Positions 52,675 through 55,691 of a stretch of DNA of 64,000 bases are shown in pieces. Every line of letters starts with the position of its first letter. Position 1 is the first letter of the stretch. Source of the stretch: Prochlorococcus sp. scB241_528O2. Its GTDB lineage: Bacteria > Cyanobacteriota > Cyanobacteriia > PCC-6307 > Cyanobiaceae. Under the pieces are notes generated by a model. It had not been told where the DNA came from. It worked only from the letters and a program-made list of their open reading frames with translations, and searched no databases. The stretch is taken from the NCBI GenBank assembly GCA_000634115.1, contig JFLJ01000113.1, forward strand, positions 62,001-126,000, written 5' to 3'. A program made the translations under genes and the position numbers.

Positions 52675-53724
52675 ATGTCTTCTAATCTATCCAACGCTGA
52701 AATCCTTAATAGTTTGTTGGAGGGGTCAAACCTTGATGATTTCAATGCTAGATCATTAATGAAAAGATGGCTTAATGATGAAATATCTGATGTTCAAACA
52801 GGCGCTTTTTTGAGCGCTTTAAGAGCTAAAGGTTGTACAGGTGTTGAATTGTTTTCTATGGCTGAAGAACTCTTAAAAGTTTGTGAATTGCCAGTTGAAA
52901 GACCAAATTTGTATATGGTAGATACTTGTGGTACTGGAGGTGATGGTGCTAATACATTTAATATTTCTACTGCAGTAGCATTTGTTGCTGCATCTTGTGG
53001 TGTAAAAATTGCAAAACACGGCAATAAAAGTGCAAGTGGAAAAGTTGGATCTGCAGATGTTTTATTAAATCTTGGTTTGAATTTAAATTGTCCATTAGAA
53101 AAAGTAGTCTCTGCAGTAAATGAAATTGGAATAACTTTTTTGTTTGCACCTGTTTGGCATAAATCTTTAATAAAACTCGCACCTTTGAGAAAGGCTCTTG
53201 GTATAAGGACTGTATTTAATCAACTTGGACCATTGGTCAATCCTTTAAGACCTAATGCTCAAGTGTTAGGTGTAGCCTCTGAGGATCTTTTAAGTCCTAT
53301 GGGAAGTGCATTATTAAAAATGGGGATGAATAGAGCAATAGTGGTTCATGGATCTGGAGGTCTTGATGAAGCCTCACTTCAAGGTGACAATAAATTAGTA
53401 TTTGTTGATAAAGGTGAATTGCGATTTTCAAAAATAAATATTTCAGATTTTAATCTTGAAAATATTTCAAACGAAAAGATTGTAGTCTCTAAAAATGACT
53501 CTAACGAGGAAATATTAAAGTCTGTTTTAAATGGCTCAGCACAAAAATCCCATAAGTATGTTGTTGCTTTGAATACTGCACTAGTTCTTTGGGTAGCTGG
53601 AATTGAGGATGATTTACATGAAGGTTTTAATAAAGCTTTATTATCGATTAATCAAGGAAATCCTTGGAAAAACTTTTTACTTTTAAAAAATTATTTATCC
53701 GCAAATGAATTAGATATAAATTGA
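52675..53724 (+). CDS. trpD: Anthranilate phosphoribosyltransferase
   Basis: ORF track start 52654; ATG at 52675 likely; [36 protein letters not shown]. Confidence 0.95.
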
Positions 53725-54863
53725 TGATTAATCAATATAAGAAAAATGCAAAATTGGTTTTAAGTAATGGAATTGTCTTCCCGGGTTTTTCTTTTGGAGC
53801 CTATGGTACCACTGTTGGTGAAATAGTATTTAATACAGGGATGACGGGATATCAAGAAGTTATTACTGATCCAAGTTATTATGGACAAATATTAACATTT
53901 ACTTATCCAGAGATTGGTAATACTGGTACTAATCTTGAAGATTCAGAATCTAGTATTAGTGTGAAAGGAATAATTGTCAGAAATTATTCATCAAATAATA
54001 GTAATTGGAGATCTTTAAATAATCTTAATAAATGGTTAGTTGAAAAAAATATAATAGGTCTATTTGGAATTGATACAAGGGCTCTTGTTAAGATATTAAG
54101 ATCTAATGGATCTATGAATGGTGTTATAACCTCTGAAGATATAACTGTAGAAAGCTGTTTAAAAATAATATACGAAGCTCCAAAAATGGAAGGATTAAAT
54201 TTATCAAAAGAAGTTACTACAAAGCAAAGATATTTATGGAAAAATCCTTCAAAAACAGATTTTGACGTTAGAAAGAGATATTCTGAAAATTCTAAAAAAT
54301 TAAAAATAGCAGCAATTGATTTTGGAATAAAAAAATCAATTTTAAATAGACTTGTCTCCCATGGTTGTGAAATTTTAATTTTACCTTCCCGATCTACTTT
54401 AAAAGATGTTCTATCTATTAATCCTGATGGGATTTTCTTCTCAAATGGTCCAGGTGATCCTTCCTCTGTTAGTGAAGGTATAGACTTAGCAAAAGCACTC
54501 ATTGAACTTGGTGAAATTCCTATGTTTGGAATTTGCCTTGGCCATCAAATATTTGGATTAGCCTTAGGAGGTTCAACATATAAACTTCCTTTTGGACATC
54601 GTGGTCTTAATCATCCTTGTGGAAAAAATAATCAAATTGAGATAACTAGTCAGAACCATGGTTTTGCTATTGACCCTAATTCTCTCCCAAAGGACATAGT
54701 TAAAATAACTCACTACAACCTTAACGACAATACTGTTGCAGGTTTAGAAGTTAAAAATAAGCCTATATTTAGTGTTCAATATCATCCAGAAGCAGGACCT
54801 GGTCCACATGATTCAGATTATTTATTTAAAAAATTTGTTTCTCTAATGTTAGAAAGATGTTGA
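53721..54863 (+). CDS. carA: Carbamoyl-phosphate synthase small subunit
   Basis: 380 aa; [40 protein letters not shown]; 4-nt overlap with trpD. Confidence 0.97.
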
Positions 54864-54927
54864 CATATTGTTTTCTTTTGATTTGATAATTACATTTGAT
54901 ACATTAATTTTTTGGAGGAATTAAATC

Positions 54928-55290
54928 ATAGAAGATTTCCAGAAGTTAACGGTTTCTTTAAGGGGAAACATTGATGTAAGAACAAATATTATTGTTTTTA
55001 CTTTTAAGGGCCAACTTGATGCCTTCTCAGAAAAACAATTTAAGAATTTCGTTATTAATAATTTTAAAAATGATCATCCATTCGTTATTGATCTTACAAA
55101 AATTGATTTTCTAGATTCTTCTGGTCTTGGTGCTCTTGTTCAGACAGCAAAAGAATGTAAAAAGTTAAAGTTAGGTTTCTCCGTTGTTGGTAATTCAAGA
55201 GTTGCTCAAACAATAAAACTTGTGCGTTTGGGTGATTTTCTTAACTTAAAATCTACTCTTGAAGATGCATTAACTTTTTTACAAAATTGA
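54928..55290 (+). CDS. STAS-domain protein (anti-sigma factor antagonist-like) with apparent ATA start codon
   Basis: Manual translation: (M)EDFQKLTVSLRGNIDVRTNIIVFTFKGQLDAFSEKQFKNFVINNFKNDHPFVIDLTKIDFLDSSGLGALVQTAKECKKLKLGFSVVGNSRVAQTIKLVRLGDFLNLKSTLEDALTFLQN*; in-frame TAA just upstream; GGAGGA at 54914-54919. Confidence 0.85.
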   Translation: MEDFQKLTVSLRGNIDVRTNIIVFTFKGQLDAFSEKQFKNFVINNFKNDHPFVIDLTKIDFLDSSGLGALVQTAKECKKLKLGFSVVGNSRVAQTIKLVRLGDFLNLKSTLEDALTFLQN

Positions 55291-55691
55291 ATTATTGGAT
55301 TCAAAACTTGGTTCCTTATGGATCTCCTGAAGAAATAGGTGTTATTCAACTTGCTTGGCTTGGTGATTCTGTATGGGAACTTCATCAAAGACTAAGATAT
55401 GTTCATTATCCTCTGAAATCAAAAGAACTCCATTTATCTGTAGTTAATGAAGTAAAAGCAAAATCTCAGTCAAAATCATTAAGTCAAATTGAACATTTAT
55501 TATGTTCCAATGAAATCGATTTAATTAGACGTGCTAGGAATAAGACTAAGAGATACCCCAAATCTTCAGACCCTACAATATACTCAAGAGCTACTGGTTT
55601 TGAAACCTTGATCGGTTGGCTTTTTCTAAAAGACCCAAAAAGATTATCAACAATTTTTGAATATCTTGAAATTAAATCTGATCATCTATGA
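55287..55691 (+). CDS. mrnC: Mini-ribonuclease III-like protein
   Basis: 134 aa, TTG start overlapping STAS stop; IQLAWLGDSVWELHQRLR...RARNKTKRYPKSSDPTIYSRATGFETLIGWLFL. Confidence 0.85.
   Translation: MNYWIQNLVPYGSPEEIGVIQLAWLGDSVWELHQRLRYVHYPLKSKELHLSVVNEVKAKSQSKSLSQIEHLLCSNEIDLIRRARNKTKRYPKSSDPTIYSRATGFETLIGWLFLKDPKRLSTIFEYLEIKSDHL

Follow-up and report, generated by a model that had tools for sequence, protein, structure and literature searches.

To our knowledge, very few bacterial genes keep a start codon outside AUG, GUG and UUG over long evolution. The textbook case is infC, whose AUU start in E. coli and many other bacteria places IF3 under its own control (cited in PMC9845219). IF3 rejects the AUH codons (AUA, AUC and AUU), whose third base mispairs with the initiator tRNA. 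In Streptomyces, sigR begins with GTC, a start that is repressed by IF3 and sets the SigR/RsrA stoichiometry (PMC5472188). For rsbW of Listeria, translation falls in the order ATG > ATA > ATT with an altered sigma activity, from which it follows that AUA works but weakly (PMC13068326). In Synechocystis, Ssr1600 is an anti-sigma antagonist, while Slr1861 is both its kinase and the anti-SigC factor; overexpression of Ssr1600 slows growth in high CO2, mutations lowering its level bring rescue, its loss rescues a mutant, and the ratio of Ssr1600 to the kinase is critical (PMC12329169). The same study, from 2025, gives TTG as the initiation codon of ssr1600 and reports its replacement by ATG for overexpression (PMC12329169).

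We analyzed a window of 64,000 nucleotides from Prochlorococcus sp. scB241_528O2, in which a gene for a STAS-domain protein lies on the forward strand at 54928–55290. This frame is a real coding sequence. It opens with ATA (54928–54930), GAA, GAT and TTC, preceded by ATC at 54925, and closes with TGA at 55288–55290. The preliminary description had recognized a complete STAS protein here, and this is borne out: the product of 120 residues, with a DSSGLG motif, matches Pfam STAS (PF01740; E = 1.5e-18, 66.9 bits against a cut-off of 22.6) and TIGR00377 (63.4 bits against a cut-off of 53.45). Its score for the SpoIIAA equivalog TIGR02886 (31.3 bits) is under the cut-off of 114.75, and it is therefore not filed as SpoIIAA. 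The AlphaFold model has a mean pLDDT of 92, with alternating strands and helices in a compact, STAS-like α/β fold, and the nearest sequence relatives in the PDB are TM1442 and SpoIIAA. Also correct were the earlier statements that the frame has no ATG, GTG or TTG ahead of the fold and that the gene is absent from the mechanical list of open reading frames (at least 60 aa). That absence is explained by the first canonical start of the frame lying near the end of the gene: trimming to it leaves 18% of the frame, the largest loss among the 69 stop-to-stop frames of at least 110 codons in the window. Among the relatives, we observed one with a frameshift in the gene and one in which the LTVSLRG motif, invariant elsewhere, is two residues short (L161 of G168 and L134 of G001).

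The sequence just upstream is organized as an initiation region. A Shine–Dalgarno GGAGG at 54914–54918 on the forward strand recurs in 124 of 125 genus loci, 8–9 nt (once 10) before the ATA. Here it forms part of GGAGGA at 54914–54919, which the preliminary description had placed about 9 nt before the ATA; 8 bases lie between GGAGGA and that codon. Across the genus the distance is 8 in 21 loci and 9 in 102. Most loci from other families have AGGAGG, usually 5 nt before the AUH codon, and other Cyanobiaceae have weaker G-rich forms. The TAA said to stand immediately upstream does exist in frame at 54922–54924 on the forward strand, with the ATC intervening before the ATA; it bars in-frame initiation from further upstream, and 101 of 125 genus loci have a stop in frame at this codon. 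As a start, the ATC at 54925 was rejected, because relatives have AAC, GTC, ACC or AAA at this place.

We then compared the codon aligned with ATA across the class Cyanobacteriia, in 315 loci that are distinct after duplicate removal. These were not a random sample but best matches chosen to cover many genera. First, within the genus Prochlorococcus, all 125 intact distinct loci have ATA. The first 110 relatives compared all had it in the aligned position, downstream of a GGAGG and directly after a codon that varies, and the more divergent members of the genus have it too. Second, the other Cyanobiaceae (73 loci) have ATA in 36, ATC in 28 and ATT in 9. Third, the other cyanobacterial families (117 loci) have ATT in 101, ATC in 9, ATA in 6 and CTG in 1. 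Overall, 314 of the 315 loci carry an AUH codon, and none carries ATG, GTG or TTG at this position. The single CTG, itself non-canonical, belongs to a basal cyanobacterial locus (L412 of G832); ten codons upstream of it stands an ATG in the same frame, with the Shine–Dalgarno sequence between the two. Orthologues are present in essentially all genomes of the class that were searched; outside it, the search found weak matches at the level of paralogues and no orthologue. Initiation at the conserved AUH codon throughout the Cyanobacteriia is thus strongly supported by these comparisons. The ATA initiation proposed earlier holds up, and its own suggested refutation, ATG in the orthologues of close relatives, was looked for and seen in none of them. 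The start is indeed unusual in Prochlorococcus, as had been said, but the scope given to it was too small: ATA, ATC and ATT are common to orthologues throughout the oxygenic cyanobacteria, and the gene is part of a growth-control system already characterized, that of ssr1600.

The same comparison bears on the source of the sequence. The assembly is fragmented (231 contigs, 88% complete), which could favor a sequencing error or a decaying gene. However, every intact relative, including those with single-contig genomes, has the same codon, and the protein is conserved over the class. The relatives refute this explanation, and we give it practically no weight.

A start elsewhere, with the AUH codon as an internal isoleucine codon, would have to lie upstream in frame or be reached by a frameshift from another frame. 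In-frame ATG, GTG or TTG codons do occur upstream in 15 of 125 genus loci, 36 of 73 other Cyanobiaceae loci and 34 of 117 loci from other families, and the basal CTG locus with its upstream ATG counts against an AUH start. These candidates are confined to a minority of loci and to scattered places. Between the upstream stop and codon 13, 106 of 125 genus loci are free of any in-frame canonical start, as are 38 of 117 loci from other families. Some such codon does lie nearby in roughly two thirds of the latter group and in almost every locus from other Cyanobiaceae, but its place is never conserved. Against an upstream start also stand the in-frame stops, at codon −2 in the 101 genus loci noted above and at codon −4, inside the Shine–Dalgarno sequence, in 30 of 117 other-family loci. 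Further, the distance from the Shine–Dalgarno sequence to the ATA shifts by one base within the genus, so that no single upstream frame can serve every locus. A frameshift from TTGGAGG was rejected for this reason, its frame relative to ATA differing between loci with 8- and 9-base spacing. Finally, the predicted leader is short, and conservation of the protein begins at the AUH codon. We consider an upstream or shifted start very unlikely.

The behavior of codon 1 is likewise not that of an ordinary codon. In 123 genus sequences, 67 degenerate codons specify a conserved residue, and all of these except codon 1 show synonymous variants; isoleucine codons elsewhere in the gene are mostly ATT, and an ordinary isoleucine codon would not be expected to be frozen as ATA in this way. 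On a protein tree of 212 sequences, built with the start codon left out, the third base of codon 1 must have changed at least 22 times, never to G, while leucine codon 7 changed at least 78 times. These counts speak to the possibility that translation does begin at the AUH codon but that the codon has no regulatory role, being an old, tolerated weak start offset by the strong Shine–Dalgarno sequence. The strength of that sequence in most loci is in keeping with such tolerance. However, ATA is a single transition away from ATG, and the chance that none of these changes would have reached G is about (2/3)^22, roughly 1e-4, if the three target bases are equally likely; the freezing of codon 1 as ATA in the genus is a further point against it. 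We therefore regard a start without regulatory meaning as rather improbable. Nor is AUH initiation a general habit of these genomes, since the readable STAS paralogues of the same genomes have canonical starts, as does the main infC in the loci read, including that of our genome (L316, ATG).

Several features point to the identity of the protein. Each cyanobacterial genome has one clear best match (E about 1e-25 or better), with the next paralogue at about 1e-7 or weaker. The residues L24, G43, S59 and S60 named for Ssr1600 fit the orthologues only if numbering begins six codons after the AUH codon, a comparison with Synechocystis 6803 made through the residue numbers in PMC12329169. The predicted phosphorylation-site motif D63-S64-S65 of DSSGLG (55114–55122, forward strand), invariant in our alignment (A1), corresponds with this six-residue offset to S59/S60 of Ssr1600. 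Judged by sequence, then, this is the form that ssr1600, the gene for the anti-SigC antagonist, takes in Prochlorococcus.

The offset also brings up the reading in which translation starts at codon 7, at the TTG adopted for ssr1600 in Synechocystis. In its favor, PMC12329169 names TTG as the initiation codon, and the four residue numbers agree with the offset of six. Yet TTG is found at codon 7 in only 47 of 315 loci (1 of 125 in the genus, 28 of 73 in other Cyanobiaceae and 18 of 117 in other families), the remainder having another codon, mostly for leucine, and it lies 18 bases further from the Shine–Dalgarno sequence. TTG was accordingly rejected as the start, and we see hardly any likelihood in it. 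Because the residue numbers call for a six-codon offset from the AUH codon, the annotated TTG start of ssr1600 is itself probably internal, six codons inside the conserved start.

The genome further encodes a single RsbW/SpoIIAB-like kinase with an ATG start (L428, G000:C112; the distance to the STAS gene is about 24 kb) and a single SpoIIE-type phosphatase with a GTG start (L429, G000:C174). This streamlined genome therefore has a partner-switching module, in which the two are likely partners of the STAS protein.

The neighborhood suggests how the gene might be transcribed and with what it might be linked. Upstream on the forward strand is a carA-like gene for the carbamoyl-phosphate synthase small chain (53721–54863; Pfam CPSase_sm_chain and GATase), and the C-terminal motif of carA is found ahead of the STAS gene in nearly every genus locus (123 of 124) and in all 72 loci from other Cyanobiaceae. 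A TTGACA at 54860–54865 on the forward strand, overlapping the carA stop codon, is a candidate −35 element; all 124 genus loci have it at a nearly fixed place, against none of the 124 for a control stretch. The candidate −10 region is GATAATTACATT (54885–54896, forward strand), with either GATAAT (54885–54890) or TACATT (54891–54896) as the element; GATAAT is present in 118 of 124 genus loci. In other Cyanobiaceae, TACACT occurs at about −37 in 64 of 73 loci (0 or 1 in control stretches). These promoter candidates predict a leader of about 25–32 nt. No special structure was indicated in the leader RNA, whose mean folding energy is slightly weaker than that of a downstream stretch. Downstream, a mini-RNase III-like gene (55287–55691, forward strand; Pfam Ribonuclease_3, 1.7e-21) has a TTG start overlapping the STAS stop codon (ATTGA), an overlap seen in 123 of 123 genus loci scored and 12 of 16 loci from other Cyanobiaceae. 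The carA/mini-III context is common within the Cyanobiaceae and extends partly beyond. Given that its start lies on the STAS stop codon, the mini-RNase III gene is probably translationally coupled to the STAS gene.

A start codon that is "wrong" across a whole class suggests that the cell purposely keeps this protein scarce by limiting the initiation of its translation. The explanation that we favor, and as a whole hold to be probable, is that the AUH start, the strong Shine–Dalgarno sequence and IF3 discrimination together keep the antagonist scarce relative to its kinase. The short leader with its strong Shine–Dalgarno sequence would bring ribosomes to the AUA, where fMet-tRNA would initiate with a mispair at the third base. 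AUA, AUC and AUU would have been kept across the oxygenic cyanobacteria because such initiation is slow and dependent on the stringency of IF3; with the antagonist scarce, a growth-limiting sigma factor would not be released by default. In Prochlorococcus, coupling would also tie mini-RNase III to the limited STAS translation. The preliminary description had likewise associated ATA initiation with low expression or start-codon control. By analogy with the systems above, we infer that expression of this gene is lowered by its start codon, with IF3 as the discriminator and dosage as the property under selection. More speculatively—and we lean against this stronger form—the start codon could be a checkpoint as old as the oxygenic cyanobacteria, through which the status of IF3 and the ribosome would set the amount of antagonist and hence the growth program, and in Prochlorococcus also that of a coupled rRNA-processing enzyme.

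If correct, this would be a second, class-wide case after infC. The gene concerned would be one that matches growth to CO2 supply, in Prochlorococcus as elsewhere, and the strength of a start codon would be a conserved regulatory setting. Current work on Ssr1600 would have to adopt the N-terminus given by the conserved AUH start. That start also explains why the gene is missed or truncated by gene finders that accept canonical starts alone. We found no report of an AUH start for this gene in cyanobacteria in the literature searched, which did not extend to subscription journals or arXiv. An arXiv survey by Gvozdjak and Samanta (2020), cited in PMC9845219, reportedly covers genes that prefer non-AUG starts and may be partial prior art. 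The class-wide AUH start in a sigma-pathway regulator appears to be new, whereas the kind of control is already known.

As a separate observation, some cyanobacteria (loci L318, L319, L320 and L321, from G552, G542, G548 and G547) have a second, diverged infC-like gene without a canonical start near its N-terminus. At the beginning of the protein, an ATC comes after a site of the GAG(G) type, and translation of this diverged IF3 paralogue may thus also start at AUC.

Genes of the infC and sigR type have in common a conserved start other than AUG, GUG or UUG and a Shine–Dalgarno sequence at initiation distance, and the STAS gene shows both. Like infC, it has a conserved AUH start, which in infC is discriminated by IF3 and for which the part of IF3 is here inferred; unlike infC, it encodes not IF3 but a regulator of a sigma-factor pathway. 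The main cyanobacterial infC, where checked, has a canonical start, which leaves no ground for proposing an autocontrol circuit common to both genes, and the infC of the genome itself was set aside as a second case of the same control since it starts with ATG. The likeness to sigR lies in a non-canonical start with a strong Shine–Dalgarno sequence, in a sigma/anti-sigma circuit where stoichiometry matters, and in a publicly annotated start that is wrong, for ssr1600 probably so; sigR differs in using GTC, with conservation reported within Streptomyces (PMC5472188), whereas the STAS gene uses AUH, would encode an antagonist and spans a whole bacterial class. Listeria rsbW resembles it in that start-codon strength within a partner-switching module alters sigma activity, but the variants there are selected mutants of the kinase gene rather than a conserved natural state (PMC13068326). 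A further close system is the Ssr1600/Slr1861/SigC cascade of Synechocystis PCC 6803, in which the STAS antagonist likewise carries DSSGLG and a SpoIIAB-like kinase phosphorylates it (PMC12329169). The difference is that TTG is taken as the start there and that the main text of that study does not mention the AUH codon conserved six codons upstream.
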